Position numbers and translations under genes: made by a program
Source of the DNA: Rhodobium orientis
Lineage (GTDB): Bacteria > Pseudomonadota > Alphaproteobacteria > Rhizobiales > Rhodobiaceae
DNA: 64,000 nucleotides
Reading direction: 5' to 3'
Assembly (NCBI RefSeq): GCF_003258835.1
Contig: NZ_NPEV01000018.1
Span: 1-64,000, forward strand
Part shown: positions 36,185 to 63,754 of the stretch, one piece after another
How the letters are laid out: each line of letters starts with the position of its first letter
Numbering within the stretch: the stretch's first letter is position 1
Notes under the pieces: model-generated
What the model was told of the DNA's origin: nothing
Databases searched by the model: none
Seen by the model: the letters and a program-made list of their open reading frames with translations, nothing else

Positions 36185-36508
36185 ATGGGGGGAAAGACTG
36201 TCACGCGTGCCGACCTGTGTGAGGCCGTGTATCAGAAGGTCGGGCTCTCGCGTACAGAGTCGTCCGAGCTCGTCGAACTCGTCCTGAAAGAAATCTCCGA
36301 CAATCTGGTCGACGGGGAGCCGGTCAAGCTGTCGTCTTTCGGATCGTTCATCGTCCGATCGAAGGGCGAACGTATCGGCCGCAATCCCAAGACCGGCGAG
36401 GAGGTGCCGATCTCGCCCCGCCGCGTGATGGTGTTCAAGCCGAGCAACGTCTTGAAACAGAAGATCAACGAGGCGCTGATCGACGGCGAGGACGCGGACA
36501 AGGCATAG
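36185..36508 (+). CDS. ihfA: integration host factor, alpha subunit
   Basis: IhfA pairs with IhfB to bend DNA in recombination, replication and sigma-54 dependent transcription. The 107-residue protein has the HU/IHF fold with [17 protein letters not shown], the DNA-binding arm region [12 protein letters not shown] containing the intercalating proline, and SSFGSF. Position after plsX-fabH and before a MerR gene is conserved in alphaproteobacteria. IHF is relevant to the sigma-54-like promoters proposed later in the window. Confidence 0.94.
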
Positions 36509-38921: not shown

Positions 38922-40168
38922 GCCGCCGCGTGCGGCTGCCGCTGGCGCGCGGTGTGCAGTGCGTCGGTCGCGATGATTCCCCAGGCCACTCCGAACAAGA
39001 GATACATGTGCCGCCAGTGGTCCATATCGATGACGATGCCCATCAGCGCATGGCCGAGAAGGACGACGGAGACGCATTGGGCATAGGCGCGCCACGGCCG
39101 CGGCTTGAAATTGATCGGCGCCAGCTTGCCGAGCGTCAGCAGGGTGAGCGCGATATAGGAAAAGCCGCCGAGCCACCCATAGGCGAGAAAGCCCTTCAGG
39201 TAGACGTTGTGCGGGTCTTCCGCGAACAGTTTGCCGAATTCCAGCGGGCCGATGCCGAACGGGTGGTGGGTTGCCATCTGGAAGCCGATCCAGTGGCGCG
39301 CGAAGCGGCCGAGCCGGGCGCCGTCATAGTCCTGAACCAGCTTCGCCCGGGCCTCGAAGAGCTTGTGGACGGCATCGCTGGATAGGGCGGCCAGCAGGAG
39401 CAGCGTGACGACGCCGGCCGCCACCGCCGCCAGCATGATCAGCCTGAGGCGCTTTACCGGATCGGTCTCGTTGATGAAGACGAGGAGGGCGGTCATCACC
39501 GCGGCAAAGAAGGCAAGGCCCCAGCTCGCGCGCGAGAACGAGAGGAAGACCGCAAGGACGATGGCCATCAGCGCCGCCATTCGCGGCAGGGTGTTTTCCA
39601 GCGGCCTCGACAGGATGTCGTGGATCAGGAAGGTCGCGGCGAGCACCAGGAACGGGCCGTAGACGTTGGGGTCCTGGAACGTGCCCTTGGCCCGGTCATA
39701 AAGGGTGAAGATGCCGGCGCCGGGAAACAGGTGGAAATAGCCGGCGATGCCGGCAACGGCGGCAAAGACGGCGGCCGCCAGATAGGCGTTGCGTATGACG
39801 TTAAGCCGCGACGGATCGGTGGTGATGATGGAGGCGAAGAAGATGCTGGTGCCGGCAAGAAAGCCGCTGACCGCCATGTACATGACGACCGTGCTGTCGA
39901 TCACCTCGAGCTGGGTCAGCGACATCACCCCGCCGGCCATGTAGAAGGCCATCAGCACGACGAGCGGCGCATAGCCCCGCTGCACGCGAAAGCCGATGAC
40001 CAGCCAGACGACGATGGTTGCCGCCAGCATCAGGTCATAGGGCGCCGGCTCGTTGATGACGAAGCCGCCGAGGAAGACCGCGAACCAGAGGATGCCGTTG
40101 AACACCCGCCGCGCCGAGACGGCCCCGCGCGGAATGCTCCGGTGCGCGAGGGCTGCTGTCTCGGTCAA
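38882..40168 (-). CDS. O-antigen ligase / Wzy-like polysaccharide polymerase
   Basis: A 428-residue protein with about eleven membrane helices and a long periplasmic loop (near 270-335) containing the Wzy_C-type signature HNVYLKGFLAYGWLGG. Such proteins either polymerise repeat units (Wzy) or ligate polymers to lipid A (WaaL); sequence alone cannot decide. The start is a TTG whose last bases overlap the stop of the upstream sugar transferase gene, so it is coupled to it. A second protein of this kind is at 54351-55745. Confidence 0.8.
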   Translation of the reverse strand: MTETAALAHRSIPRGAVSARRVFNGILWFAVFLGGFVINEPAPYDLMLAATIVVWLVIGFRVQRGYAPLVVLMAFYMAGGVMSLTQLEVIDSTVVMYMAVSGFLAGTSIFFASIITTDPSRLNVIRNAYLAAAVFAAVAGIAGYFHLFPGAGIFTLYDRAKGTFQDPNVYGPFLVLAATFLIHDILSRPLENTLPRMAALMAIVLAVFLSFSRASWGLAFFAAVMTALLVFINETDPVKRLRLIMLAAVAAGVVTLLLLAALSSDAVHKLFEARAKLVQDYDGARLGRFARHWIGFQMATHHPFGIGPLEFGKLFAEDPHNVYLKGFLAYGWLGGFSYIALTLLTLGKLAPINFKPRPWRAYAQCVSVVLLGHALMGIVIDMDHWRHMYLLFGVAWGIIATDALHTARQRQPHAAAYSPPQPSSASRA

Positions 40169-41715
40169 TAGGCGTGCTCCGTGTTGAGGAGCCGGATCGG
40201 CGTCAGGATGAGAATGTAAAGGTCGAACAGGAGCGACCAGTTCTCGATGTAATAGAGGTCATGCTCAACGCGCCGGCGGATCTTGTCCGACGTATCGGTC
40301 TCGCCGCGATAGCCGTTGATCTGCGCCCAGCCGGTGATGCCGGGCTTGACCCGGTGGCGGGCGTAGTAGCCGTCGACGACCGCCTCGTAGAGCCGGCCGG
40401 CGGCCTTGGCGGATGGCGCGTGCGGTCGCGGGCCGACGAGGGAGAGGTCGCCGCGGATGACGTTGAAGAGCTGCGGCAGCTCGTCGATCGAGGTCTTGCG
40501 GATGAAGCGGCCGACCTTGGTCACCCGCGGGTCGTCCTTGGTGACCAGCCTGTCGGCGCGGGCGTCCGTCATGCTCTGGTACATCGAGCGGAACTTGAAG
40601 ATCTCCACCGGCTCGTTGTTGAAGCCGTAGCGCTTCTGGCGAAAGATCACCGGCCCCTTGGTCTCGGCCCGGATGGCGATCGCCGTCGCCAGCATCACCG
40701 GCGACAGGCCGATGATGGCAAGGGTCGCAAAGACCAGGTCGAAGCAGCGCTTCAGGATCGAGTCCCAGTCGGCGATCGGCTTGTTGAAGACGTCGACGAA
40801 AGGCACGGCGCCGACATACTGGTAGGAGCGGCGGCGGAAGCGCAGCTTGTCGGTGTGTGCCGACAGGCAGATGTCGACCGGCAGCACCCACAGCTTCTTC
40901 AGCATCTCGCCGACCCGGCCTTCCGCCGTCAGCGGAATGGCGACGATCAGAAGGTCGATATTGGCCATGCGGGCGAAGGTGACGAGTTCAGCGATGGTGC
41001 CGAGTTTCGGATAGCCGGCGACCACGTCGGGCGAGCGCTCGTCGCTGCGGTCATCGAAGATGCCGCAGATGCGGATGTCGTTGTCCGGCTGGTTTTCCAG
41101 GGAGATGATCAGGTCTTCGGCGGTCTTGCCGCCGCCGACGATGACAGCCCGGCGTTCCAGCCGGCCCTCGCTGGTCCAGCCGCGCACGGCAACGGCGAGC
41201 GCGGTGCGGAACAGGGTGAAGAAGGTGAGGCCGCCAAGGTACCAGCCCATGAACCAGACGCGGGAAAACTCCTCGCCGACCTTGGCAAAGAACAGGATGG
41301 TGGCGAAGAATGCGAACACCATCGTCCAGGCGCCGAAGATGCGGCCGAGCTGGCTGATATAGGTGCGGAAGCTGGCGATGGTGTAGCCGTCGGAGCCCTG
41401 GATCAGCAGGATCGTCAACACCGAGCCTGCAAGCAGCGGATAGGCGTAGTGCCAGGCAAGGCCCTCGTCCGGATAGACGTACCAGAAGAAAACGCCGAAG
41501 CCGATCAGCGCCAGCATCGCGAATTCGATCAGCCGGGCCGCGCCGGCGATGATGGCGGGCGCGATCGTGCGCTGCTTGAACCGCTCGGCGACCTCGCGGG
41601 CGAGCGCGCCCAGTTCCGGTGCGGGCAGCGGCGTCCCGTCGACATCGACGAGGGTGCCGGTGGCGGCGAGTTTCGCGGCATCGCGAAACCTTAGCCTCGG
41701 ATCGAGTTCTGTCAT
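40165..41715 (-). CDS. undecaprenyl-phosphate sugar phosphotransferase (WcaJ/ExoY type)
   Basis: The 516-residue protein starts polysaccharide repeat synthesis by moving a sugar-1-phosphate to undecaprenyl phosphate. It has about four N-terminal membrane helices (near 65-190), a Rossmann-like CoA-binding-type domain (near 200-310), a further membrane helix in the segment [16 protein letters not shown] (near 320), and the catalytic domain with [15 protein letters not shown] and VGPRPHA. The C-terminus [14 protein letters not shown] is diagnostic. The ATG at 41715 follows GAGGTG. The sugar is probably glucose or galactose. Confidence 0.9.
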
Positions 41716-41771
41716 CGAACACCTCACTCGGACACGGGCGTCCGTACGCAACTTTTGGCCAATACTAGCCG

Positions 41772-42983
41772 TTACTGCCTAATAAACACTTGATCGTCGG
41801 AGCGCGCCGGCCGCCCGGCCGCGCGGCGTCCCGCCGGCTTTGCGGTCGCCAGCGTCTCGCGGTAGAAGGCCTCGATCTCTCCGGCCATGGCGGCGAGCGA
41901 GAAGGGCCGGCGCAAACGTTCGGCCCGCGCGTTCGCAGCGGATTGGAATCCGGCGCCGTCCTTCAGGAATGCGGCCATGTGGGCGGCAAGCGCCCGGTCG
42001 TCGTCGGGGGTGACCAGCAGCCTGCTTTCGGGCCCGAAGATCTCCGGAATGCCGCCGACGCGGGTGGTGATCAGCGGCCGGTGTGCGGCAATCGCCTCCA
42101 GCACGATATAGGGCAGGGACTCCGCCCGCGACGGGATGACGACGCAGCGCGCGAGCCGGAACGCCTCGCGCGCCGGCATCGGATCCTCGAACCTGACGAC
42201 GGCCTGAAGGCCGAGCTCGGTGACGAGCCGCTGATACGCCGGCTTGTCGTCGCCGGCCCCGACGATGACGCCGGTCGGGCTCGTCGGGCCGTTCTCGCGC
42301 AGGCGCGCCAGCGCGCGGATGAAGAGGTCCGGCCCCTTCAGGTCGCGCAGCGTGCCGATGAACAGGAAATCGTCGGCATCTTCGACCGGGACGACCGGCT
42401 CGAATTCCTCTGGCCTCAGGCCGTTGTGGACGACCTTCTGCGGCACGATCGGCGCGCCGACCTTTTCGCGGTAGGCGTCGGCCTCGAACCGGCTGACGAA
42501 GACGAGCCCGTCGGTGACGTGTTCCATCAGCCGCTCGGCGGTGAAATAGACCCGGCCCTGCAGGCTTCTGGCCTCGTAGTGGAGGCTGCCGCCGTGCGGA
42601 CAGTAGAAGCGCGCCATGCGGTGGCCGGTCATCCTCAGGATCGCGCCGATGATGCGGGCAAAGGCGCCGCCCTTGGCGCCATGGGCGTGCAGCACGTCCG
42701 GCGCCATGCGGCCGATTTCCCTGGCGACCCGCCAGCTCGACAGGATGTCGCGCGGCGAGACATGGCGGCGCATCGGGATGCGGGTGACACCGAGGGAAAG
42801 GTGCTCGCCGAGGGCGGCGATGCGCGCGTCCTCAAATGAGCCGCCGGTGGTCGAATCGCAGATCAGTCCGACCGCATGTCCGGCCGCCGCCTGCGCCGTC
42901 GCCAGGTCCGAAACGTGGCGAAAGACGCCGCCGACGGGCGCGCGGATGCAATGGACGATCCGGAGCTGTTCCTTGTCTTGCAT
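41772..42983 (-). CDS. glycosyltransferase family 4 protein
   Basis: A 403-residue GT-B glycosyltransferase. The N-terminal acceptor domain starts LRIVHCIRAPVGGVFRHV, and the C-terminal nucleotide-sugar domain contains FLFIGTLRDLKGPDLFI and the ESLPYIVLEAIAAHRPLITT motif with the GT4 glutamates. The tail is arginine-rich. The ATG at 42983 has GGAGG at 9 bases; an in-frame start at 43055 would include the intergenic palindrome's flank. It probably adds a sugar to the lipid-linked repeat begun by the downstream sugar transferase. Donor unknown. Confidence 0.88.
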   Translation of the reverse strand: MQDKEQLRIVHCIRAPVGGVFRHVSDLATAQAAAGHAVGLICDSTTGGSFEDARIAALGEHLSLGVTRIPMRRHVSPRDILSSWRVAREIGRMAPDVLHAHGAKGGAFARIIGAILRMTGHRMARFYCPHGGSLHYEARSLQGRVYFTAERLMEHVTDGLVFVSRFEADAYREKVGAPIVPQKVVHNGLRPEEFEPVVPVEDADDFLFIGTLRDLKGPDLFIRALARLRENGPTSPTGVIVGAGDDKPAYQRLVTELGLQAVVRFEDPMPAREAFRLARCVVIPSRAESLPYIVLEAIAAHRPLITTRVGGIPEIFGPESRLLVTPDDDRALAAHMAAFLKDGAGFQSAANARAERLRRPFSLAAMAGEIEAFYRETLATAKPAGRRAAGRPARSDDQVFIRQ

Positions 42984-43065
42984 GGTCTGCCGCCTCCCTC
43001 CGGCAAAACCGGACGGCGCCGCAAGGGGCGCCTTAGTTGAGAGGCACTCTAGCAAGAAGGGATGA

Positions 43066-43085
43066 GCGGCCGGTTAACCGGCCGC
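43066..43085. promoter_or_regulatory. uninterrupted 20-base palindrome
   Basis: GCGGCCGGTTAACCGGCCGC is a perfect, gap-free palindrome, 83 bases upstream of the glycosyltransferase start and 50 bases after the export gene stop. A strong candidate operator or cruciform; without a loop it makes a poor terminator. Its core GGTTAACC resembles words found at 43738 and 48842. Confidence 0.5.
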
Positions 43086-43135
43086 AAAAGCTACGGTGAA
43101 ATGGGCGCTGGCGGCGTATTTGTCAGTCGGCTCGC

Positions 43136-43699
43136 TCAGAACAGCCGCTCGCGGATATAGATGGTGTCGCCCGGCCGGATCGGGTCGGTGATCGGCACCC
43201 GGCCGGTCAGCACCTTGCCGTTGATCTGGCGGGTGATATCGACGCTCTTCTGGTAGCCGCGGGCGGAAAAGCCGCCGGCGATCGCCACCGCCGTCTGCGC
43301 CGTCAGGCCAGCCACATAGGGGTACTGACCGGGCGTGCGCACCTCGCCCATGATGAAGAACGGGCGGTACTGCTCGATCTCCACCGAGACGTCCGGATTG
43401 CGGATATACCCGGCCCGAAGCTTGGTGGCGATGGCCCTTTCGACGTCCGACGTCGTCTTGCCGCGGGCCGCCACCGCGCCGATCAGCGGCACGGAGATGT
43501 GGCCGGCCTGGTCGACCGTGTAGGTCGACGAGATGTCCGACTGCCCGAACACGACGAGGCGCAGCTTGTCGCCGCTGTCGAGCTGGTAGGGCTCGGTCAG
43601 CACCTGGTGAAAGGCGGTGGGCGGGCGGCGATAGCCGGTGCAGGACACCACCAGCGCCGCAAGACCTGCGATCAGAATGAGACGAAGTACACGCGTCAT
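43136..43699 (-). CDS. polysaccharide export outer-membrane lipoprotein (Wza/OPX family)
   Basis: The 187-residue precursor has a lipobox LVVSC (C20) and a Poly_export domain (near 35-115, QLDSGDKLRLVVFGQ) followed by one SLBB domain (near 118-175, FIMGEVRTPGQYPYVAG). It forms the outer-membrane channel or periplasmic adaptor for polysaccharide export. It is shorter than E. coli Wza and lacks an obvious C-terminal amphipathic barrel helix, like many rhizobial ExoF/OPX-type proteins. It is divergent from the Wzc-like gene at 43903, its likely partner. No second export protein is in the window. Confidence 0.9.
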   Translation of the reverse strand: MTRVLRLILIAGLAALVVSCTGYRRPPTAFHQVLTEPYQLDSGDKLRLVVFGQSDISSTYTVDQAGHISVPLIGAVAARGKTTSDVERAIATKLRAGYIRNPDVSVEIEQYRPFFIMGEVRTPGQYPYVAGLTAQTAVAIAGGFSARGYQKSVDITRQINGKVLTGRVPITDPIRPGDTIYIRERLF

Positions 43700-43735
43700 G
43701 GGAGACCCCTGTTCCTCGTTCCTTTATTGGCTTTC

Positions 43736-43743
43736 ATGGTTAA
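43736..43743 (-). promoter_or_regulatory. candidate CtrA half-site upstream of the export gene
   Basis: The minus strand reads TTAACCAT, an exact CtrA octamer, 36 bases before the export gene start in the divergent control region. The surrounding 203 bases (43700-43902) contain no gene and must hold promoters for both genes; TTAACCGG also occurs at 43842-43849. Confidence 0.35.
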
Positions 43744-43902
43744 CGGAGCGTGAAGAGCGGCGGCCTTTATACGGCGCAGTTGGCAAGACCTGGGAATACC
43801 GGCATTCGTGTGGGAAGAAAATGGATACAACCGGGCGCCGATTAACCGGTTGCTTACCTTAACAAGAGAATACTGGCCCCAGTTTCCTCGGAGTCAGTAG
43901 CC

Positions 43903-46074
43903 ATGAAGAACGTCGAGAATCCCTACGGTGACGACGTCGCCATCGATATCAGGGGGCTTGCCGCCGCCGTCTGGCGCGCAAAGCGCTGGATCCTGCCGGC
44001 GACCGTTGCTGTCGCCGTCGTCACGGCTGTCGTGCTGTCTCTGATTACGCCGCGCTATCTCGGCCAGTCGAAGATCCTGATCGAGGCCACCAAGTCCGTT
44101 CTCGCCGACGCCGACGAAAAGCCGCAGGAAGCCGAACGCGCGCTGCTCGACCCGGAAGGGGTGACGAGCCAGGTGCAGCTCCTGATCTCGCGCGATCTCG
44201 CCCGCCGCGTCGCCAAGAAGCTGGAGCTGGCCGAACGCGCCGAGTTCAACCCCGCCGGCAAGGGCGGCGGCACGCTCGTCGGCGATCTCATGGTGCTGTT
44301 CGGGCTTGCCCGCGATCCGCTGCGGGTGTCGCCCGAGGAGCGCGTGCTGGAGGCCTATTACGAACGCCTCAAGGTCTACAACATCGAGAATTCCCGCGTC
44401 ATCGCGGTGGAGTTCTCCTCTATCGACCCGGCGCTCGCCGCAAGGGGCGCCAACACCATCGTCGACGAGTACATGGCCCTGCAGTCGGCCGCCAAGCGCT
44501 CCAAGACGGTCGACATGGCGGAAATCCTGGAGCCGGAGATCGCCAAGCTGCGCGACGAGGTCAGCGCGGCGGAACGCCGGGTGGAGGATTTCCGCTCCAG
44601 CAACGATCTCCTCATCGGCAACAACAATTTGACGCTGACCCAGCAGCAGCTCGGCGAATTGACGACCCAACTCGCCAGCGCCCGCAGCGCCCAGAGCGAG
44701 GCCGAGACGAAGGCCCGGCTGGTCCGCAACCTGATTTCCAGCGATTCCCTCGACAGCTCCACCGACGTCCTGAATTCGCGGCTGATCCAGCGCCTGCGCG
44801 AGCGCCAGGTGACGCTGAAGGCCCAGCTCGCCGAGCTGTCGACGACGCTCCTGCCGAACCATCCGCGCATCAAGGCGCTGAAGTCGCAGATTGCCGACTT
44901 CAACAGCCAGGTCCGCGGCGAGGCCCGCAAGGTGCTGCGCGGGCTTGAGAACGACGCCGAGATCGCCGCGGAACGCGTGCGCTCGCTGCAGAGCAGTATC
45001 AACGAATTGAAGGCCAAGACCGCCAACACCAATAACGAGCAGGTGCGGCTGCGCGAACTGCAGCGCGATGCCGAGGCCAAGAGCCGGCGACTGACGACCC
45101 TGCTCGGGCGTTACCGCGAGGCCGATGCCGGCCGCAACGCCCGCACCCTGCCGGTCGATGCCAGGGTGATCTCGCGCGCCACGGTGCCGCCCAAGCCCTA
45201 CTGGCCGAAGATCGTGCCGATCACGGTCATCGTCACCATCGCCGCCCTGCTGGTCTTCATCGGCATCGTCGTCATCACCGAATTCCTCTCCGGCAAGGCC
45301 CTGCGCCCGGTGCCGGTTGCCGCGGAGGACGAACCCGAGGCGCCGGAAGCCCCCGAGGCGGTCGGCCGGATCCCGGAAGAGGACCTGATCCGCTGGGACG
45401 ATTCCGGAAATCTGCATCGGGTCATGCCGAGCGAGCCGGCACACGCGGCCGAGCGCTCGCGCATCGAATCGGCCCGCGAGGTCTGGCGTCGCATCGCCCC
45501 CGGCAGCGACGGCAAGCGCCACCTGGTGGTCGCCGGCGCAGAGCCGGGCACGGCCACCCGCATCGCCGCCATGGCGCTTGCCCGCACCGCCTCGGCCGAC
45601 GACAACGTCCGCGTCGTCATGCTCGACCTTTCCAATGAAATCCACGCGGGCGACGGCATCACGGAAATGCCGCTCGCCGGCCTCACCGACCTTCTCGACC
45701 GCGGCGTCTCCTTTGCGCAGGTTCTGTTCCGCGACCGCCGCTCCCGCGCCCATGTGGTGCCGCGCGGCCGCCGTCCGCTGACCGAGGCCGATCTGGCGGG
45801 CGAGCGGTTCCAGACCGTGATGGAGGCGTTAGAGTTCACCTATGACGCCGTCATCATCGACGTCGGCCCGCTGACGTTCGGGCGCCACATCGCTGAGTTC
45901 CTCCTGCGCGCCGACCATGTCGTGCTGGCGACGTCCGGCAAGACCGGCGATCCTACGGCGGCCTATGCCTACGAAATCCTGTCGCGCAACGGCATCGAGG
46001 AGATCTCCGTCGTCTCGACCGCCGAGATGGGCGATCCGATCGTCGCCGCCGACCTCACCGGCGCTGCCGCCTAG
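43903..46074 (+). CDS. Wzc/GumC-like polysaccharide chain-length protein with degenerate ATPase domain
   Basis: A 723-residue inner-membrane protein with a membrane helix at 29-51, a large periplasmic Wzz and coiled-coil region (to about 430), a second helix near 434-456, and a cytoplasmic P-loop-like domain. The ATPase part is altered: where Walker A should be it reads VVAGAEPGTATRIAAM (near 541-556), with no lysine, and the C-terminus lacks a tyrosine cluster. So tyrosine kinase activity is unlikely, although VVMLDL retains a Walker A'-like strand. It is divergent from the export gene, its probable partner. A second, intact copy lies at 52161. Confidence 0.85.
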   Translation: MKNVENPYGDDVAIDIRGLAAAVWRAKRWILPATVAVAVVTAVVLSLITPRYLGQSKILIEATKSVLADADEKPQEAERALLDPEGVTSQVQLLISRDLARRVAKKLELAERAEFNPAGKGGGTLVGDLMVLFGLARDPLRVSPEERVLEAYYERLKVYNIENSRVIAVEFSSIDPALAARGANTIVDEYMALQSAAKRSKTVDMAEILEPEIAKLRDEVSAAERRVEDFRSSNDLLIGNNNLTLTQQQLGELTTQLASARSAQSEAETKARLVRNLISSDSLDSSTDVLNSRLIQRLRERQVTLKAQLAELSTTLLPNHPRIKALKSQIADFNSQVRGEARKVLRGLENDAEIAAERVRSLQSSINELKAKTANTNNEQVRLRELQRDAEAKSRRLTTLLGRYREADAGRNARTLPVDARVISRATVPPKPYWPKIVPITVIVTIAALLVFIGIVVITEFLSGKALRPVPVAAEDEPEAPEAPEAVGRIPEEDLIRWDDSGNLHRVMPSEPAHAAERSRIESAREVWRRIAPGSDGKRHLVVAGAEPGTATRIAAMALARTASADDNVRVVMLDLSNEIHAGDGITEMPLAGLTDLLDRGVSFAQVLFRDRRSRAHVVPRGRRPLTEADLAGERFQTVMEALEFTYDAVIIDVGPLTFGRHIAEFLLRADHVVLATSGKTGDPTAAYAYEILSRNGIEEISVVSTAEMGDPIVAADLTGAAA

Positions 46075-46083
46075 AGCGCTTTC

Positions 46084-46178
46084 CCAAAAAGTTGACAGAC
46101 TTTTTGGATAAGAAATCGCGTGAAAATAATGGCCTAAAGCACGTTGCGTTTTTCAGGTAAAACGCAACGTGCTTTAGG
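46084..46178. repeat. twin palindrome in the Wzc - Tat-protein gap
   Basis: CCAAAAAGT (46084-46092) pairs with ACTTTTTGG (46099-46107). Then a 20-base arm beginning CCTAAAGCACG (46133-46152) pairs perfectly with its complement (46159-46178) around a 6-base loop TCAGGT. Similar twin hairpins occur as dispersed intergenic repeats in rhizobial genomes, from memory. Either hairpin could also stop transcription from the upstream gene. It ends 15 bases before a sigma-54-like promoter. Confidence 0.75.
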
Positions 46179-46192
46179 CATCCGGACAATTC

Positions 46193-46208
46193 TGGCAGGC
46201 GACTTGCA
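46193..46208 (+). promoter_or_regulatory. sigma-54-type promoter P1
   Basis: TGGCAG-GCGAC-TTGCA matches the RpoN -24/-12 pattern TGGCAC-N5-TTGCA except one base, with the invariant GG and GC correctly spaced. Transcription would start near 46218, 24 bases before the ATG at 46242. Confidence 0.55.
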
Positions 46209-46241
46209 TTCCGGGCCTTGCGACATGTTCGAAGGCCCGGA

Positions 46242-47492
46242 ATGACCCTGATCACCCGCAGACACCTCTTGAGAAGCGCCGCGGCCGCAGCCGTGCTGCC
46301 GTCGGCGGTGCCCGCTCGGGCAGCAAGGAAGGCCGTCTGCGGCATCGATCTTTCGCGCGCCGCCTTCAACAGTGTGTCCGACTGGGACAGCGTCTTTGAG
46401 GCGCGCTGGGGTCCGCTCGGGACCATCGGGAAGAGTCGCATCCTGGAATGGATCGGCGCCAGAGACGGCGTCTATGACGACAGGGACGGCGTCCTGGCCT
46501 GGATTCTCGGCTACTGGGTCCGTGCCTTTGTGACCATGGCGGACCTTACCGGCGCGCCGCGCCACATGGACGCCGCCGCCTCGCTCATCGCCTTCATCCT
46601 CGATCATACCGATGCACGGCGCGTTGCCCGCGGCGAGATCGTCGAGAATTATGCCCGCGACCCGCTCTATTTTCGCGGCACGGGTGAGGGCGGGCCGTTC
46701 TGGAAGCGCGGCGACGATGCCATTGTGCTGAACACCGGTCACATCGCCAACCCCATCCTGCGCTTTGCCGACCTTGTTTTCCGCGACGCGGATCGCTTCG
46801 GCGCATACATGCCGGAGGCGGTGCGGACCTTCACCGAGGCCCGCATCGCCGTCGATGCCTTCGACAATGACTGGCAGGTGGTCGGCGACAAGGGCAGCTA
46901 CCACTACCGGGATAGCCAGGGATCGGGCCAGCTCGGCACGACGCGGACGGCCTTCAACCAGTCGGCCACCATGATGACGGCTGAGATCCTCCTAGACCGC
47001 TGGCGTCCGAACGCAGGTCGCGTCGACAAGATCGGGCGCCTCGTCCGCTACTGGCTGGAGGACTTCGCGGATTTCCGGCCGGACGGCACGGTGTCCTGGC
47101 CATACATGATCCATCCGACGCTCGGTGTGACGGAAGACGTCGGCCACGCCTCCATTGACGTTGATTTTCTGGTTGCGGCCTTTGATACCGGCCGCACGGA
47201 CCTCACCGAAGAGCACATGGCCACGCTCGCCAGAACCTTTCTGGAAAAAATCTATGACGGGCGAGGCGGGCTCAACCGCTTCGTCGACGGCACCACGGAG
47301 CCGGGCTTCGGGGAACACTGGAACGCGGCCATCGGGTTTCTGGAACTCGCCCGGTTCGCGCCGCGCGTTGCCGACGTCGCGCTCAACGTTTTCAATGCGA
47401 AATATCCACCCGACGCGCCGGACGGCATCCTCTGGGCGCGGCCGATGCTCGGCTGGGCAACATTGCTGAAGGCCGCGGCGACGCCGTGCTGA
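46242..47492 (+). CDS. Tat-exported protein of unknown function in the polysaccharide locus
   Basis: The 416-residue precursor has a signal peptide with a twin arginine (TRRHLLRSAAAAAVLPSA) and probable cleavage near ARA-AR (29-32). The mature part is rich in tryptophan, tyrosine and histidine and is largely helical, which could fit an alpha/alpha-toroid carbohydrate-active fold such as a polysaccharide lyase, hydrolase or epimerase, but no family motif is clear. Notable segments are ENYARDPLYFRG, DNDWQVVGDKGSYHYRD, VSWPYMIHPTLGVTEDVGHASIDVDF and GFGEHWNAAIGF. The ATG at 46242 has AAGG upstream. It has its own sigma-54-type promoter. Confidence 0.7.
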   Translation: MTLITRRHLLRSAAAAAVLPSAVPARAARKAVCGIDLSRAAFNSVSDWDSVFEARWGPLGTIGKSRILEWIGARDGVYDDRDGVLAWILGYWVRAFVTMADLTGAPRHMDAAASLIAFILDHTDARRVARGEIVENYARDPLYFRGTGEGGPFWKRGDDAIVLNTGHIANPILRFADLVFRDADRFGAYMPEAVRTFTEARIAVDAFDNDWQVVGDKGSYHYRDSQGSGQLGTTRTAFNQSATMMTAEILLDRWRPNAGRVDKIGRLVRYWLEDFADFRPDGTVSWPYMIHPTLGVTEDVGHASIDVDFLVAAFDTGRTDLTEEHMATLARTFLEKIYDGRGGLNRFVDGTTEPGFGEHWNAAIGFLELARFAPRVADVALNVFNAKYPPDAPDGILWARPMLGWATLLKAAATPC

Positions 47493-47512
47493 GGCGCACA
47501 TTCGTGCATTTC

Positions 47513-47528
47513 TGGCACAGTACTTGCT
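47513..47528 (+). promoter_or_regulatory. sigma-54-type promoter P2, exact core
   Basis: TGGCAC-AGTAC-TTGCT is a full match to the RpoN consensus TGGCAC-N5-TTGCW. Start of transcription is expected near 47539, 41 bases before the ATG at 47580. It lies in the 87-base gap after the Tat-exported protein gene. Confidence 0.75.
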
Positions 47529-47579
47529 GTCTTCGCGCGATAATCATTGTTGGAAGCCGGACGGCGGGAGACGCTTCAA

Positions 47580-48296
47580 ATGGAGACATCGATCGGAGCA
47601 CAGGGCGGTCGATCGCTGGCAAAAACTGTCCCAGGCCTGGTCATCGGACTTCTCAAGCGCACGGGGCTGCCGCGACTGGCGACGCGGTCCTTCGACGTTC
47701 TGGTCAGTCCCGCCCTGACGCGCTGGCGGCTGGCGCGGCTGCCCGCGCATCGGCCGCTGAAGATCGTCATCGGCGCCGGCGGCCTTCGCCTGCCGGGGTG
47801 GATTTCGACGTCCGAGACCGTCCTCAATCTTCTGAAGGCCGAGGACTGGGGTCGCCGTTTCAGCGCCCGCAAAATCGATGCGATCCTCGCCGAACACGTC
47901 TGGGAGCACCTGACACCGGATGAAGGACGTCGGGCCGCGCGGATCTGTTTTGAGCACATGGCCCCCGGCGGCCATCTCCGCATTGCCGTACCGGACGGAT
48001 GTCATCCCGATCCGGCCTATATCGACAAGGTGAAGGTCGGCGGCACAGGTCCGGCGGCCGACGACCACAAGGTGCTCTTCACCCACCGCTCGCTGACGGC
48101 ACTCCTGGAAGAGGCCGGCTTCGAGGTGCGGCTCCTGGAATATCACGACGCCGCCGGCACCTTCCACGCGGCCGACTGGTCGCCGGAGGACGGCATGGTG
48201 TTCCGCTCGGCCCGGTTCGATGCCCGCAACAGGTGCGGCCGGCTCGTCTATACCTCGATCATCGTCGATGCGGTGAAGCCGGTAACTGCGAGCTGA
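47580..48296 (+). CDS. SAM-dependent methyltransferase-like protein
   Basis: The 238-residue protein has the late part of a class I methyltransferase: EHVWEHLTPDEGRRAA, MAPGGHLRIAVPDG (near 134-147) and a C-terminal EEAGFEVRLLEY. The glycine-rich SAM loop is short and unusual (IVIGAGGLRLPGW near 63-75), and the acidic SAM-ribose ligand after it is not obvious. Homologues occur in polysaccharide loci and may methylate sugars. The ATG at 47580 follows GGGAG. It is preceded by an exact sigma-54-type core and is convergent with a NUDIX gene. Confidence 0.75.
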   Translation: METSIGAQGGRSLAKTVPGLVIGLLKRTGLPRLATRSFDVLVSPALTRWRLARLPAHRPLKIVIGAGGLRLPGWISTSETVLNLLKAEDWGRRFSARKIDAILAEHVWEHLTPDEGRRAARICFEHMAPGGHLRIAVPDGCHPDPAYIDKVKVGGTGPAADDHKVLFTHRSLTALLEEAGFEVRLLEYHDAAGTFHAADWSPEDGMVFRSARFDARNRCGRLVYTSIIVDAVKPVTAS

Positions 48297-48306
48297 GCTT
48301 CGGCTC

Positions 48307-48792
48307 TTACCAGATCGCGGCCGGCGGCTGAACGCCGGCGATCTCGTCAAGGCGCCTGCGTGTCGCCGGCGAGGTCTCGGCCGGCAGGGCGTCGACCGGG
48401 AACCAGCCGTGCTCGGCGATTTCCGCATTGGGCACCGGCGCCTCCGGCTGCTCCCACTGACGGGCGACGAACAGCACCACATGGTCGCGGCGGTAGATGC
48501 GCTTGTTGTGGTAGACGGCGAAGAGCTGCGGTTCGCCGAGGAGCCGGATATTGCCTTCCTCGCGCAGTTCCTTGTCGAGCGCCTGGCGCACCGTCTCGCC
48601 GAGATCGACGCCGCCGCCGGGCAGGTGCCAGCCCGGCACATAGGTATGGCGGACGAGGAACACCCGGCCGTCGCCATCGAAGACGGCGCCGCGCACGCCG
48701 AGCGTCATCCCCCGCGAAACGAGCCAGTATCGCTTGAGGAACGGCCGGATCCACGGCCCGAGCCGGGGCAGAATATCGTCTTGAAAGCGCAC
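48307..48792 (-). CDS. NUDIX hydrolase
   Basis: A 161-residue protein with the NUDIX box at 60-82. It reads GGVDLGETVRQALDKELREEGN when started at 60, so the consensus arginine of REUxEE is K74 and the final glycine position is N81; the metal-binding glutamates E75, E78 and E79 remain. Homologues in polysaccharide loci resemble GDP-mannose or other nucleotide-sugar hydrolases, but the substrate cannot be assigned. It is the only minus-strand gene among its neighbours. Confidence 0.85.
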   Translation of the reverse strand: MRFQDDILPRLGPWIRPFLKRYWLVSRGMTLGVRGAVFDGDGRVFLVRHTYVPGWHLPGGGVDLGETVRQALDKELREEGNIRLLGEPQLFAVYHNKRIYRRDHVVLFVARQWEQPEAPVPNAEIAEHGWFPVDALPAETSPATRRRLDEIAGVQPPAAIW

Positions 48793-48930
48793 CGGTAGCG
48801 TCCGCGTCCGGGGGAGGGAAGACGAAACCTAGCGCCCATAAGGTTAACGGCTTGCTTCTAAAATCGGCACGGCGGGGCGTCAAAACAAAACACTTGTTAA
48901 CACTTTCGGTCCGTTTCGCACACAACGCCC

Positions 48931-48946
48931 TGGCACGTGGCCTGCA
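48931..48946 (+). promoter_or_regulatory. sigma-54-type promoter P3
   Basis: TGGCAC-GTGGC-CTGCA keeps the full -24 element and the invariant GC of the -12; one base (C for T) differs. Start of transcription would be near 48957, about 63 bases before the GTG at 49020. A GGTTAACGG word lies upstream at 48842-48850. Confidence 0.6.
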
Positions 48947-49019
48947 TTGAGGACGCCGAGCGGATTGCGGTCTCGCAATTCGGGAACTTCTTCAAACCCC
49001 GCGCGGGAGGCGATCCACG

Positions 49020-50027
<1,008 letters not shown>

Positions 50028-50079
50028 GCGGCCGCGGCCGGCCCCTCCCGCTTCAACTGTTTTTTCGGAGATCGCACCC

Positions 50080-51156
50080 ATGCGCAACGTCGTCCTCATC
50101 ACCGGCTCGGCCGGCCTCATCGGTTCCGAGGCGGCCCGGTTCTTCGCCGACCGCGGCCACCGCATCGTCGGCATCGACAACGACATGCGGAAATATCTGT
50201 TCGGTACTGAGGCCTCGACCGAATGGAACCGCAACCGGCTGTCGGCGGACTTGCCGGCCTACCGCCACGTCAATGCGGACATCCGCGACGAGGCGGCGAT
50301 GGGCGCGCTGTTTGAGGAGCTGGCGAGCGATCTCTGCCTGATCATCCACACCGCCGCCCAGCCGTCCCACGACTGGGCCGCCAAGGAGCCGTTGACGGAC
50401 TTTACCATCAACGCCAACGGTACCCTGGTTCTGCTGGAACTGACCCGCAAGCACTGCCCGGAGGTGCCGTTCATCTTCACCTCCACCAACAAGGTCTATG
50501 GCGACACGCCGAACGGCCTGCCGCTCGTCGAAAAGGCCGAGCGCTGGGAGATCGACGAGAGCCATCCGTTCTTTGCCCACGGCATCGACGAGACCATGAC
50601 GATCGACCAGTCCATGCACAGCCTGTTCGGTGCCTCCAAGGTGGCGGCCGACATGCTGGTGCAGGAATACGGCCGCTATTTCGGCATGAAGACCGCCTGC
50701 TTCCGCGGCGGCTGCCTGACCGGCCCGGCCCATAGCGGCACCCAGCTCCACGGCTTCCTCGCCTATCTGATGAAATGCGCCGCCACCGGCGCGCCCTACA
50801 CCGTGTTCGGCTATGGCGGCAAACAGGTCCGCGACAACATCCATTCCAACGACCTGGTGAACGCCTTCTGGCACTTCTTCCAGAAGCCGCGCTCCGGCGA
50901 GGTCTACAACATGGGCGGCGGGCGCCATTCCAACTGCTCCATGCTGGAAGCGATCCGCCTGTGCGAAGACATCACCGGTCTGAAGCTCAACCACAGCTAT
51001 TCGGAAGCCAACCGGATGGGCGACCACATCTGGTGGATCTCCGACACCCGCCGCTTCGAGGCGCACTATCCGGACTGGAAGCGCGACTACGACGTCGCCG
51101 CCATCCTTGAGGAAATCTACGTCGTCAATCGCGACCGCTGGCGCGAGGCCTCCTGA
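50080..51156 (+). CDS. NAD-dependent epimerase, CDP-paratose 2-epimerase-like
   Basis: A 358-residue extended SDR protein with the NAD loop [14 protein letters not shown]. It resembles CDP-paratose (tyvelose) 2-epimerases in [15 protein letters not shown] and [14 protein letters not shown]. The active-site YxxxK is LFGASK, with F183 in place of tyrosine and K187 kept. Tyvelose epimerases act by transient oxidation at C2 and may tolerate other arrangements, so loss of activity should not be assumed. It follows UDP-glucuronate decarboxylase by 52 bases and is probably in its operon. Substrate uncertain. Confidence 0.8.
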
Positions 51157-51208
51157 GCGGGGCCTTCCCAGCCGGGCGAATGCCCGTCCTCCAACAGGCA
51201 AAAGAACC

Positions 51209-52012
51209 ATGATCGATAACGGCAAGAAGAACGTTCTTGGCGTCGGCGTCAGCGTTGTCGACTATGACGGCGCCGTCGAGGCCATCATCCGGGCGGCGCG
51301 GGCGCGTCGCGGCTTCAAGGTTGCGGCGCTCGCCGTCCACGGCGTCATGACGGGCGTGCTCGACCGGCGCCACCGCTACCGCCTCAACAGCTTCGACGTC
51401 ATCACGCCGGACGGCCAGCCCGTGCGCTGGGCCCTCAATCTCCTGCACCGCACGAAGCTCAAGAACCGCGTCTATGGACCGGAACTGACGCTGCGCCTCT
51501 GCGAACGGGCCGCACGCGAGAACCTTCCCATTTACCTCTATGGCAGCAAGCCGGAGGTGCTGGAGCGCCTTCAGGAACGCCTGGCCGAGCGCTTCCCCGG
51601 CCTCGTCATCGCCGGTGCCCGGCCGTCGCTGTTCCGAAAGAGCACGGCGGAGGAAAAGGAGGCGATTGCCGAGGAGATCCGCGAGAGCGGCGCCCGGCTC
51701 GTCTTCGTCGGCCTCGGCTGCCCGCGCCAGGAGGTCTGGGCCTACGAATATGCCCGGCTCCTCGACATGCCGGCGATCGCCGTCGGCGCCGCCTTCGATT
51801 TCCATGCCGGGCTCTTGTCCCAGGCGCCGCGTTGGTTCCAGGACCGGGGCCTTGAATGGGCCTACCGGCTGAGCCGCGAGCCGAAGCGCCTGTGGCGCCG
51901 CTATCTCCTACTCAATCCCGCCTATCTGACGATGCTCGCCGCCCAGGCCCTCGGCCTTGCCCGCTATGCCGACCGCGGCACCGAGCCGGGCGACGCGGAG
52001 AACTTTGCCTGA
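51209..52012 (+). CDS. WecG/TagA/CpsF-family glycosyltransferase
   Basis: The 267-residue GT26 protein transfers a sugar, classically N-acetylmannosamine or its uronate, to a lipid-linked acceptor at the membrane. The family motif [10 protein letters not shown] holds the catalytic aspartate D68, and [17 protein letters not shown] (near 168-184) binds substrate. The C-terminal [23 protein letters not shown] is the membrane-associating helix of the family. The ATG at 51209 follows AGGC; in-frame starts further upstream lie within the epimerase gene. Probably same operon as the decarboxylase. Confidence 0.92.
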
Positions 52013-52160
52013 AGCAGGTGCCAGCGCTGCGGCGCGCTTCTTGCAAAACCAACGGCAATCCGGCCGAACGGCGGCCGGTTGCTTCAAAACGGGACAGATA
52101 TCGGCCGCGGTCCAGGCCTCGTTCGAACACTCTGTCCCCCGATCCGACGGTGATAGCGCC

Positions 52161-54302
52161 ATGAACAGTTTTCCGCCGAACAGCCAGATGGCCCTTCCGG
52201 TCGCCCATATGCCCCAGGTTTATGCCGAGCCGCGCACGCCGGCCTTCGGCATCGGCGACGTCATCTCCATCCTGATGCGGCATAGGCGCACCGTCGTCGT
52301 CACGGCGTTGATCTTTGCCACCATCGCCGCCGTCTACGCCTTCGGCCGCGAGCGCAACTACGTCGCCATGTCGCGGATCCTGATCAATCCGCGCGGCCTG
52401 CAGGTCGTCGACCGCGAGATCACGCCGACGTCGGAGACCAATGACGGCGGCATCGCCATGGTGGAAAGCCAGATGCGGGTGATGACGTCGAACGACGTCC
52501 TGGCCAAGGTCGTGGCGCGCGAACATCTCGGCGAGGACCGCGAATTCGTCGGCGGCGGCGGGGCGCTCTCTGCCATTACCGGCTTCCTCGGCAGCCTTGC
52601 CGGCGGCGGACGCTCGATCCAGCCGGACATCAAGGCACTCTACAATCTACAGGAGGCCGTGCGCGCCCAGCGCCCGAAGCGCTCCTATATCGTCGAGCTG
52701 AACGTCAAGACCAAGGACGGCGCTAAGTCGGCCCGGCTCGCCAACGCCATCGCCGACGTCTACATCAACTCCGAAGCCGATGCCCAGTCGGGCCTTGCCG
52801 GCCGCGCTTCCGAAATGCTCACCGGCCGGCTCGACGAGCTGCGCCGGCAGCTCAGCGCCGCCGAAGAGGCGGTCGAGACGTACAAGTTCGAGAACAACAT
52901 CGTCACCTCGACGGGCTCGCTGATCAACGAGCAGGAACTCTCCCAGGCCAACCAGCTCCTGACCCAGGCGTCCAACCAGACGGCGACGGCGCTGTCCAAG
53001 CTGGAACAGGTGCGCCGCATCAAGAACACCGGCGACATGTCGCAGCCGCTGCCGGAGGCGATCACCTCGCAGACGATCACCCGCCTGCGCGACCGCTACG
53101 GCGCGGCCGTTCAGCGCCGCGAGGCGCTGTCCGCCCAGCTTCTGCCGAGCCATCCGCGGATGCAGGCGGCCAAGGCCGAGATCGATTCCGCGCGCCGCCA
53201 GATCGTCGGCGAACTGAACCGCATCGCCGCGGCCACCGAGGCCGACTACGAGCGCGCCAGGGCCCATGAGGATAAGGTCCGCGCCCGCATCGAGACGCTG
53301 AAGTCCGGCACCCACCGCACCAATGACGCGATGGTGCGCCTGCGCGAATTGCAGCGCGATGCCGACGCCAAGCGCGCCGTCTACGAGGCCTTCCTGGTCC
53401 GCGCCCGCGAGCTGTCGGAACAGCGCCAGGTCGACACCACGGCGGCACGTATCGTCTCGCGCGCCATCGTGCCGATGCGGCCCGACGGTCCGGGCTCGAT
53501 CCTGATCGTCCTTCTCGGCCTCTTCGCCGGCGCCGGCGTCGGCACCATGCTCGCCTTCGGCCGCGAGGCACTGTCGACCCGCATCTCCTCGCCGGAACAG
53601 ATCAGCCAGATCTCCAACCTGCCTCTGCTGGCCTCGATCCCGATCTATCCGACCCATTCCTCCGACGAGGGGTTGCCGGAATTCGTCGCCGACGATCCGC
53701 TGTCGCCGACCGCACTCGCCATCGGCGACCTGCTGGAGAATTTGCGCCCCTACGGCCCCGGCGGCGACGTCAAGACCGTGCTGGTGACCTCGCCCGGCCT
53801 CAACCACGGCAAGACGACCGTCGCCTTCAACCTGGCGCTGGCGGCCGCCCGTCGCGGCGAGAAGGTTCTGCTGGTCGACGGCGACGCGACGCGGCGCACG
53901 CTCAGCGCCCTGCGCGTCGACGATCCCGAGATCGGCTTCTTCGACGTCGTCAACGGCAGGGCCCGGCTGCAGGACGCGCTGGTGCTCGATCCGGGCGGCC
54001 TCGTCATGATCCTGCCGGCCGGCCGCACCTCCGGCTTCGACTGGTCGTCGTCGCTGACCGCCGACAAGATCAAGAACGCCGTCATGCGCCGGCTTCCCGA
54101 CGTCAGCCTGATCGTCATCGACGGGCCGATCGGCGGCCGTAGCGACGCGCTCGCCCCGTTCAGCGAAAGCGCCGATGCCTCCTGCCTCGTCATCCGCTCC
54201 GGCGAGGTCGACGAGGCGACCCTGAAGCGCTCCGCCGAAAACCTGCGCGCCCGCCCGGGCAAGCGGAACGGGAGCGTGTTCGTCGTCGATGCGGCCGAAT
54301 GA
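52161..54302 (+). CDS. Wzc/ExoP-like polysaccharide chain-length protein with intact P-loop
   Basis: A 713-residue inner-membrane protein: Wzz domain with helix near 43-61, long periplasmic coiled coil (about 210-420), second membrane helix near 446-468, and a cytoplasmic ATPase domain. Walker A is intact, SPGLNHGKTT with K551, and the Walker A' LLVDGD supplies D573. No tyrosine cluster is visible at the C-terminus (ending SVFVVDAAE), so it may be an ATPase without autophosphorylation. It is the second Wzc-like gene in the locus and is followed at once by a Wzy-like gene, likely its functional partner. Confidence 0.88.
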   Translation: MNSFPPNSQMALPVAHMPQVYAEPRTPAFGIGDVISILMRHRRTVVVTALIFATIAAVYAFGRERNYVAMSRILINPRGLQVVDREITPTSETNDGGIAMVESQMRVMTSNDVLAKVVAREHLGEDREFVGGGGALSAITGFLGSLAGGGRSIQPDIKALYNLQEAVRAQRPKRSYIVELNVKTKDGAKSARLANAIADVYINSEADAQSGLAGRASEMLTGRLDELRRQLSAAEEAVETYKFENNIVTSTGSLINEQELSQANQLLTQASNQTATALSKLEQVRRIKNTGDMSQPLPEAITSQTITRLRDRYGAAVQRREALSAQLLPSHPRMQAAKAEIDSARRQIVGELNRIAAATEADYERARAHEDKVRARIETLKSGTHRTNDAMVRLRELQRDADAKRAVYEAFLVRARELSEQRQVDTTAARIVSRAIVPMRPDGPGSILIVLLGLFAGAGVGTMLAFGREALSTRISSPEQISQISNLPLLASIPIYPTHSSDEGLPEFVADDPLSPTALAIGDLLENLRPYGPGGDVKTVLVTSPGLNHGKTTVAFNLALAAARRGEKVLLVDGDATRRTLSALRVDDPEIGFFDVVNGRARLQDALVLDPGGLVMILPAGRTSGFDWSSSLTADKIKNAVMRRLPDVSLIVIDGPIGGRSDALAPFSESADASCLVIRSGEVDEATLKRSAENLRARPGKRNGSVFVVDAAE

Positions 54303-54350
54303 TCTTCGGGTCCTGACCGCCACGCTTTGCCGCAAGGGCAGGAGAGACGG

Positions 54351-55745
54351 ATGATGACCGCCTACGCAACGGCCGACCACGCAAGCGCCAACCCGGCCGC
54401 CTCGCACGCCTGGGAGCGCACGCTCGCCGCGGTCCTTGCCGTGCTGCTCATCATCTTTGCCACCCAGTCCTTCCAGTTCCTGTTCGCCGACAAGGTCAAC
54501 GAGGGCATGACCACCCGCGATTCCGCGGCCAGCAACCCGGTCTATCTGGCCATCTTCGCCGCCCAGTACGGCATCGCGCTCCTCTTGCTGCTCTATTCCG
54601 CGCTCCATCGCGGCCTCGGCTGGCAGTTCCTTGCCGGCATGGTCATTCCGGGCGTTGCCGCACTGTCGGCGCTGTGGTCCGTCGGCACCAAGATGACCGT
54701 GACGAACACCGTCGTGCTCACCTATCTGGTCATCGCCTCCTATGTGCTTTCGGTGCATTTCCGTCCGGCCGAGGTGCTCAGGATCTATTTCCGCGTCACC
54801 GTCTTCTGCCTCGTCGCCTCGCTGGTCCTCTACGTCGTCGCGCCCGACCAGGTGCTGCAGGCGCGCTATGGCGGCGGTTGGGTCGATGGCTGGGAATTCC
54901 GCGGCGTCATGTCGTCGAAGAATTTTGCCGGCTTCGTCTTCGCCAGCACCTTCCTGTTGGCCTTGAACGGCAAGCTCATCGGCATCGGGGCGTTCTGGCG
55001 CTATTCGGTCGGCCTGATGGCGCTCGGCGCCCTGGTGTTGACCAGTTCGGCGACCGCCGTCCTCGTCGTCGTGCTCCTCACGCCGGCCTCGGTCCTGCTC
55101 CGCCTCTCCGGGCCCTACCGGGCGCTGCTCGCGTTTGCCATGGTCGTTCTGTTCTTTTGTGCCATCATGGCCCTGCCGGTCATCGGCTCGGGCGCGGCGA
55201 TCGACGTCCTCGGCCGCGACGCCACCTTCACCGGCCGCACCGACCTCTGGCGGCTGGCCTTCGAGAACATCGCCGAACGCCCCGTCCTCGGTTTCGGCTA
55301 TACCGGCTTCTTCGATGCAGACCCGTTCTCGCCGGCCTGGCAGTTCTGGCAGCATTTCCGCTACTTCCTGACCGCCACCTTCCACAACGCCGCCATCGAG
55401 GCGCTGGTCTCGCTCGGCCTCGTCGGCCTCGTGCTGCTGGCCGCCCTCTGCCTCATCGCCGGTGCCGTCATCTTCAACCGCACGGTCGAGGAGGGACCCC
55501 GCCTCGTGCTGGTCATCCTGCTGTCGGTGTTCCTGATCGGCGGGACGATGGAGTTCACCATCCTCCACCACAACTACATCGGCACGGTCGTCGCCTTCTA
55601 CGCCGCCTTCGTCGCGCTGACCCGCTACGGCCCGGACCAGGACACCCTGCCGCCGAGCTGGCAGCCGGTCCGCCAGCGCCCGCCGCGCCGCCCGCTCTTT
55701 GCGGCAAGCGCGCCGGTGCGGACGCAGCGTCCGGCGCTCGTCTGA
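54351..55745 (+). CDS. O-antigen ligase / Wzy-like polysaccharide polymerase
   Basis: A 464-residue membrane protein with about eleven hydrophobic helices. The Wzy_C-like region contains GRTDLWRLAFENIAERPVLGFGY (near 296-318), and HNAAIEALVSLGLVG corresponds to the conserved HNxxL-type segment. It follows the Wzc-like gene by 48 bases with GGAG ahead of the ATG at 54351; an ATG one codon later is equivalent. Polymerase or ligase cannot be separated by sequence. A strong bidirectional terminator follows. Confidence 0.82.
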   Translation: MMTAYATADHASANPAASHAWERTLAAVLAVLLIIFATQSFQFLFADKVNEGMTTRDSAASNPVYLAIFAAQYGIALLLLLYSALHRGLGWQFLAGMVIPGVAALSALWSVGTKMTVTNTVVLTYLVIASYVLSVHFRPAEVLRIYFRVTVFCLVASLVLYVVAPDQVLQARYGGGWVDGWEFRGVMSSKNFAGFVFASTFLLALNGKLIGIGAFWRYSVGLMALGALVLTSSATAVLVVVLLTPASVLLRLSGPYRALLAFAMVVLFFCAIMALPVIGSGAAIDVLGRDATFTGRTDLWRLAFENIAERPVLGFGYTGFFDADPFSPAWQFWQHFRYFLTATFHNAAIEALVSLGLVGLVLLAALCLIAGAVIFNRTVEEGPRLVLVILLSVFLIGGTMEFTILHHNYIGTVVAFYAAFVALTRYGPDQDTLPPSWQPVRQRPPRRPLFAASAPVRTQRPALV

Positions 55746-55789
55746 CGGGGGCACGGCCGGGGGCATCACGGTTCGCAATCGTCAGCGAC

Positions 55790-55830
55790 AAAAGAAAGCC
55801 GCGGGAGCAATGACCTCGCGGCTTTCTTTT
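55790..55830. terminator. strong bidirectional terminator
   Basis: A perfect 14-base arm AAAAGAAAGCCGCG (55790-55803) pairs with its complement (55817-55830) around a 13-base loop. The arms start with A-runs and end with T-runs, so it can stop transcripts of the rightward Wzy-like operon and the leftward convergent operon. Confidence 0.88.
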
Positions 55831-55880
55831 GCTTGTGATGCCAGATGCAGCTATGGCGGACCTTGATCCCACCCATCCAA

Positions 55881-55986
55881 TGTCATTGCGAGCGAGCGAA
55901 GCGAGCGCGGCAATCCAGGGGCCGCACGCTCGGAGCATGCCGGCCTGGATCGCCGCGTCGGCCTGTCGGCCTCCTCGCGATGACGG
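55881..55986. repeat. dispersed palindromic intergenic repeat, copy B
   Basis: GTCATTGCGAG...GCGGCAATCCAG (55882-55918) is followed by the inverted form CCTGGATCGCCGCG...CTCGCGATGAC (55944-55984). Internally GCGAGCGAAGCGAGCGC is repetitive. It shares the words TCATTGCGAG and CGGCAATCCAG with copy A at 192-308 and fills the gap between convergent operons. Confidence 0.75.
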
Positions 55987-56000
55987 AGTAGCGTTCGTCC

Positions 56001-61782: not shown

Positions 61783-61784
61783 CG

Positions 61785-63718: not shown

Positions 63719-63754
63719 GTCGGCGCTCACTTTCGTTGCGGTGATGTCGGGCGG

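Follow-up and report, generated by a model that had tools for sequence, protein, structure and literature searches.

How is the synthesis of a surface polysaccharide switched on in Rhodobium orientis, a member of the alphaproteobacterial order Rhizobiales? The window analysed here comprises the first 64,000 nucleotides of contig NZ_NPEV01000018.1 (C94), and a Wzy-type polysaccharide locus occupies its right-hand part and runs on beyond its edge. A first-pass annotation had pointed to three sequences in gaps of this locus that resemble promoters of RpoN (sigma-54). Together with a fourth site outside the window, these are best explained as RpoN −24/−12 promoters that head four transcription units and are all opened by one activator, a reading to which we give a probability of roughly 0.78. 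That the first three are sigma-54 promoters is strongly supported by their context, by an independent matrix score and by their conservation, and on these grounds they are very probably real.

Site 1 (TGGCAGGCGACTTGCA, 46193-46208, plus strand) reads TGGCAG-N5-TTGCA and lies upstream of the gene for a Tat-signal protein at 46242-47492. Site 2 (TGGCACAGTACTTGCT, 47513-47528, plus strand) is followed by a methyltransferase gene with its ATG at 47580 and matches the consensus exactly, as the first-pass annotation had stated. Site 3 (TGGCACGTGGCCTGCA, 48931-48946, plus strand) reads TGGCAC-N5-CTGCA and heads a five-gene unit at 49020-55745. All three are situated in gaps, and their sequences and coordinates had been reported without error. 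Site 4 (TGGCATAGTCCTTGCT, 65320-65335, minus strand) lies beyond the edge of the window on the same contig, whose numbering is that of the window. GG at −25/−24 and GC at −13/−12, at fixed spacing, are present in all four strong sites. With +1 placed 24 nt past the second G (−24), the position of the motif predicts transcript starts at about 46219, 47539 and 48957 on the plus strand and at about 65309 on the minus strand. The predicted leaders of sites 1 to 3 thus measure 23 (ATG 46242), 41 (ATG 47580) and 63 nt (GTG 49020); the last two agree with the earlier prediction, and the first had been put at 24.

It is the location of sigma-54-like matches, not their number, that exceeds chance in this genome. 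The pattern TGGCAC-N5-TTGCW, with at most one mismatch, occurs 79 times in the 5.19-Mb genome, and 29 of these matches fall no more than 200 nt upstream of a gene on the same strand, 16 in other gaps and 34 in coding sequence; the exact matches are upstream of genes in four of four cases. Forty shuffled patterns gave 679 matches, distributed as 30 upstream, 79 in other gaps and 570 (84%) in coding sequence, and the upstream enrichment (29/79 against 30/679) has a Fisher p of about 1e-15. This control comprised 504 kb of DNA from the same genome (its length includes overlaps, but each repeated place was counted once) that was mostly drawn from around the matches and is not a random sample. The reversed pattern in the control DNA behaved like the shuffles, with two matches upstream, two in other gaps and 14 in coding sequence out of 18. 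Equal density in coding DNA, which the first-pass annotation had named as an argument against promoters, was thus not what these counts gave. Genes were called with a home-made codon-usage caller trained on the genes of this contig, and the 3-kb loci around the matches cut genes at their ends. The genes behind the upstream matches, as read from their proteins, include nifH, nifB, a nif-cluster iron-sulfur gene, a flavodoxin gene, genes of the glnB/K and urea-transporter types, two flagellar genes and a TRAP-transporter gene adjoining an activator gene; a circularly permuted ATP-grasp gene, a DUF1465 gene and a PAS_5 gene were assigned by Pfam. Within this set the polysaccharide locus is conspicuous, with four strong sites in 19.1 kb where 0.107 would be expected at the genome rate (Poisson 5e-6, uncorrected, for a stretch picked afterwards and against a rate that includes the four sites themselves). 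In GC-rich DNA such as this, position relative to genes rather than motif count sorts likely from chance sigma-54 sites.

A matrix built from 24 upstream sites located off this contig was run on both strands of the 76,248-bp contig; the training sites had themselves been picked by consensus, so that consensus-like sites are expected to score high. The five best positions are site 2 (47513, 20.28), site 4 (65320 minus, 18.58), a site at 7234 (minus, 17.7), site 3 (48931, 16.55) and site 1 (46193, 15.15), followed by 62548 (minus, 12.24) and 52030 (11.5), with the next scores at 11.1 and below. All seven lie in gaps upstream of a gene on the same strand. The first coding match takes eighth place, and 16 of the 18 positions in places 8 to 25 are coding. 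The view that other gaps of the window hold no comparable match had to be given up: the site at 7234-7249 outscores two of the three originally described, and weaker gap matches exist at 62548 (minus) and 52030 (plus).

The locus is also present in a second genome of the genus (G001, about 91% identical DNA), with all four strong sites in place. Across the four gaps, none of 44 core bases has changed, as against three of 20 spacer bases and 114 of 805 aligned flank bases; had the core changed at the rate of the flanks, it would have stayed intact with a probability of 0.0012. Sites 1 and 4 are identical at 16 of 16 bases and both stand amid diverged flanks, and site 2 retains its core with three of five spacer bases changed, which accounts for every spacer change among the four. 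The weak sites at 52030 and 62548 are identical too, the flanks of the former differing, and the 16 bases of the 7234 site likewise reappear in the G001 match list. Genome-wide, the 16-mers recurring in that list number 21 of 29 for upstream matches, four of 16 for other gaps and two of 34 for coding matches, recurrence being judged by sequence alone and irrespective of place. In G002, of the same genus, neither the Tat-signal gene nor the epimerase was found. Among 30 epimerase loci across the order, three have a site-like upstream match (this genome, G001 and one other), as do five of 30 initiating-transferase loci (this genome, G001 and three others), both counts being without a shuffle control. 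When 77 of 80 named epimerase loci were scanned, four had a match, compared with a mean of 0.38 and a maximum of five for 200 shuffled patterns.

The four strong sites head units of one, one, five and eight genes. Of the 16 genes from 46242 to 65224, these units take in 15 and leave out one, an opposed NUDIX gene at 48307-48792. The three-gene module proposed in the first-pass annotation was thus drawn too small. The Tat-signal protein, its Tat-type signal recognized by eye, matches no Pfam family. Its predicted fold is mostly helical and weakly resembles GH76 enzymes and sugar 2-epimerases (AlphaFold mean pLDDT 70.6; best Foldseek E 1.7e-3, cellobiose 2-epimerase and GH76, with none at E <= 0.001), and it is possibly an exported sugar-active enzyme. 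Relatives occur in four of 297 genomes of the order, this one counted; a first scan of contigs had returned none. The methyltransferase (Methyltransf_23 by Pfam, 47580-48296, plus) forms the second unit. The five-gene plus-strand unit encodes two NAD-epimerases, a WecG/TagA-type glycosyltransferase, a Wzz/GNVR kinase-like (Wzc-like) protein and a Wzy_C protein. The minus-strand unit begins with an initiating sugar transferase of the WcaJ type (63755-65224; TIGR03023, 443.6 bits against a cut-off of 410.75), whose start at 65224 was picked by eye (AAGGGA ahead of the ATG) and of which the window holds the 3′ end, 63755-64000. Behind it follow seven polysaccharide genes (56001-63730, minus) in the order epimerase, nucleotidyltransferase, DegT aminotransferase, glycosyltransferase, deacetylase, flippase-like membrane protein (identified by eye, with no Pfam match) and glycosyltransferase. 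The two weak sites fall within these units, at 52030-52045 (plus) in the gap upstream of the Wzc-like gene and at 62548-62563 (minus) in the gap upstream of the nucleotidyltransferase gene. Judging from their spacing, the genes probably form operons.

In the mechanism that we propose, the four promoters would head the Tat-signal protein gene, the methyltransferase gene, the epimerase-glycosyltransferase-Wzc-Wzy unit and the initiating-transferase unit of the Wzy-type locus. RNA polymerase with sigma-54 would sit at all four in the closed state, each site would serve as a transcription start, and they would be opened by an AAA+ activator, probably a response regulator in its phosphorylated form. 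If a single activator opens all four, polymer synthesis would begin as a block upon the signal, and that signal would reveal when the surface polymer is made.

Which protein could act as the activator? The genome carries a single rpoN copy and 15 PF00158 hits, of which 11 are strong (E below 1e-50). Ten of these 11 were profile-scanned: NifA, FlbD and NtrC (TIGR01818 for NtrC) are above NCBIfam cut-offs, and the others, below any cut-off and named by nearest model, domain or place, are PrpR-like, AtoC-like, DctD-like (adjoining a TRAP transporter), LuxO-like (on contig C32), receiver-less and two designated by their contigs, C189 and C162. NtrX, outside the profile scan, was named by its place beside NtrC. 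The GAFTGA motif is found in seven of the 11, NtrC has GSFTGA, C162 has GAFPGA, and NtrX and the receiver-less activator show no match to G.F.GA. G002 has counterparts of NtrC, FlbD, C189, DctD-like, LuxO-like and NtrX, and no clear counterpart of NifA, PrpR-like, AtoC-like, receiver-less and C162; this comparison thus singles out none. As to the usual helper of RpoN, the first-pass annotation placed IHF in the window, which holds at the level of the family (an IHF/HU-family gene, PF00216, at 36185-36508). An IHF-site pattern occurred in none of the four regions and at none of 17 other sigma-54-type promoters, and is thus uninformative.

Two activators are unlikely, as their upstream motifs were not seen at the four sites. 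TGT-N10-ACA is the site bound by NifA. It is absent within 300 nt upstream of all four strong sites in this genome and in G001 and present at six of the 17 other sigma-54-type promoters, which read as those of nif-cluster genes and flavodoxin, so that NifA control is disfavoured. FlbD control is disfavoured likewise: the list of best palindromes for the four does not include CGGCAA-N3-TTGCCG, which the flgE- and flgF-like sites share near −100, a soft test with a motif derived here from only two promoters. By this elimination, NtrC and the LuxO-like regulator on C32 are the leading candidates.

If NtrC were the activator, the locus would belong to the nitrogen-limitation response, as cepacian does in the betaproteobacterium Burkholderia cenocepacia; this is possible, if on the unlikely side. 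As a precedent, the cepacian clusters need both NtrC and sigma-54 (PMC5491218), and the NtrC found here, over its TIGR01818 cut-off and carrying GSFTGA, is 99.6% conserved in G001 and 81% in G002. It is, however, also present in G002, the genome in which the Tat gene and this locus's epimerase were not found. NtrC-type site patterns were seen at none of the four sites but also at none of the 17 other promoters, and are uninformative.

The LuxO-like response regulator (C32, 40698-42167, minus) is a somewhat less probable candidate. It carries GAFTGA and is divergent from a flippase gene (Polysacc_synt-type) that is followed by an Acetyltransf_6 gene; the flippase gene adjoins it in this genome, G001 and G002. 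In G002 the regulator is less conserved (59%) than NtrC, FlbD, NtrX, C189 and the DctD-like activator (76-84%). However, only three of 30 loci compared with 1.5-kb flanks have the flippase neighbour, none of them outside the genus, while 92 of 297 genomes from the order carry a relative of the regulator. It falls below the LuxO cut-off (490 of 800 bits), so that the name denotes the nearest model only; the gap between it and the flippase gene holds no sigma-54 site (the best has three mismatches); and G002 contains this regulator, although neither the Tat gene nor the epimerase was found in it.

Unlikely, too, is that only sites 2 and 4 are active, with sites 1 and 3 weak or decayed. The matrix separates the two pairs (20.3 and 18.6 against 15.2 and 16.6), and the core of site 3 is no more conserved than its leader. 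Yet sites 1 and 3 score at least 4 bits above any coding-region position of the contig, and site 1 stands out from its diverged flanks.

A more far-reaching version must be regarded as doubtful: a dedicated enhancer-binding protein operating an all-or-none sigma-54 switch over a complete Wzy-type locus, acquired recently (within the genus), with CtrA-like half-sites before sites 3 and 4 possibly linking it to the cell cycle. The priming transferase with its sugar supply, the polymerase and chain-length unit, the methyltransferase and the exported processing enzyme would then each have a promoter of their own. The word AAGGTTAACG, which resembles a CtrA half-site, precedes sites 3 and 4 (48840-48849, and 65385-65394 on the minus strand of C94). 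It has eight copies in the genome (the reversed word four), some of them ahead of what read as motility, chemotaxis and Tad-pilus-like genes. As 30 of 182 ordinary gene starts have such half-sites, their presence at two of the four is not a clear enrichment.

Several observations weigh against the reading of four RpoN promoters opened by one activator. The motif as such is not in excess, with 16 matches of at most two mismatches in the window where 22.3 are expected, and with 142 matches to the reversed pattern against the 79 in the genome. In site 1 the sixth base of the consensus, C, is replaced by G, and site 3 has C in place of T at −15. Site 3 and its entire leader (48947-49019) are identical in G001, unlike much of the gap upstream, so that the core is not singled out by this conservation; the leader has no Rfam match, nor does any part of 43000-56500 at gathering thresholds. 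Isocitrate-dehydrogenase-type, Lon-type and LysR-type genes, by reading, lie behind some of the 29 upstream matches and are unusual sigma-54 targets; the class therefore probably includes chance matches. A common activator site is not evident, as the four upstream regions share one gapped word against a mean of 6.2 in controls. None of the 15 PF00158 hits is on this contig, which ends 12.2 kb beyond the window's right edge, and the AAA+ activator expected to the right of the window was thus not found there. In G025 the Tat-signal protein, the epimerase and the initiating transferase have relatives (57%, 80% and 48%, respectively), but no site of up to two mismatches lies within 200 nt before them, and this control is therefore not seen beyond the genus there. 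Finally, the absence of sigma-70-like sites lends the reading little weight, as shuffles average only 0.5 and 0.1. The rival view, in which the matches arose by chance and transcription of the locus begins at other promoters, is nevertheless very unlikely. The raw counts, not above shuffles or the reversed pattern, and the imperfections of sites 1 and 3 would fit such a view, but position, clustering, matrix rank and conservation speak otherwise.

A few further features of this genome deserve mention. The strong site at 7234-7249 (minus, CGGCACGGAACTTGCT) is followed after 37 nt by an FAD-oxidoreductase gene (6046-7197, minus); the site is unrelated to polysaccharide genes and adjoins an arginyl-tRNA-protein transferase gene. 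A strong hairpin of 20 pairs at 46132-46179 ends 13 nt before site 1; G001 has lost roughly half of this hairpin, which is thus not preserved there. To the left of the locus, 38882-43699 holds further polysaccharide genes with no strong sigma-54 site upstream, namely a second initiating sugar transferase gene (40165-41715, minus), Wzy_C, a glycosyltransferase and Poly_export. Elsewhere, a sigma-54-like site (L178, 529-544; G000:C190) lies 38 nt before a gene whose product is a right-handed beta-helix protein bearing a Tat-type signal; an Acetyltransf_6 gene comes next. This may be a distant member of the same programme. An exact sigma-54 consensus (L004, 1501-1516; G000:C189:69755) precedes the DUF1465 (PF07323) gene. 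That family includes RcdA, an adaptor of CtrA degradation, which would make a connection between sigma-54 and the cell cycle.

Sigma-54 control of exopolysaccharide is already established or predicted in several settings. Across phyla, sigma-54, its activators and its promoters have been predicted by Francke et al. (2011; PMC3162934) to go with exopolysaccharide, lipopolysaccharide and cell-wall genes; theirs is a general comparative prediction, whereas the present case concerns one locus with a site heading each of four units. In the open-access literature (titles and abstract openings, with few subscription papers), we found no alphaproteobacterial polysaccharide locus with sigma-54 promoters heading several units. 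A PEP-CTERM/exosortase system, in which an RpoN-dependent pepA is tied to exopolysaccharide and flocs (PMC9850573), was considered and rejected: exosortase EpsH (PF09721) is found in neither this genome nor G001, and among ten of the 11 activators (NtrX excluded) the best score for the PEP-CTERM response regulator (TIGR02915) is 420.9 against a cut-off of 502.6. The cepacian clusters of B. cenocepacia are exopolysaccharide clusters that depend on sigma-54; there the activator is NtrC (PMC5491218), and here there are candidates only. In the BerB-RpoN-berA-bep pathway of the same species, exopolysaccharide is governed by an enhancer-binding protein together with a sigma-54 site, which was mapped before the regulator gene berA (PMC5552954), whereas the sites described here lie before biosynthesis genes. 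The NtrC of Caulobacter affects envelope polysaccharide even though it lacks GAFTGA (PMC12421884). In another alphaproteobacterial diazotroph, Bradyrhizobium DOA9, rpoN mutants are defective in surface polysaccharide; that report does not use the word 'promoter' and so describes none (PMC10581086). The present locus would provide a concrete case, in a diazotrophic alphaproteobacterium, of sigma-54 sites placed directly before polysaccharide genes, at the heads of four units, and not acting by way of a regulator gene.

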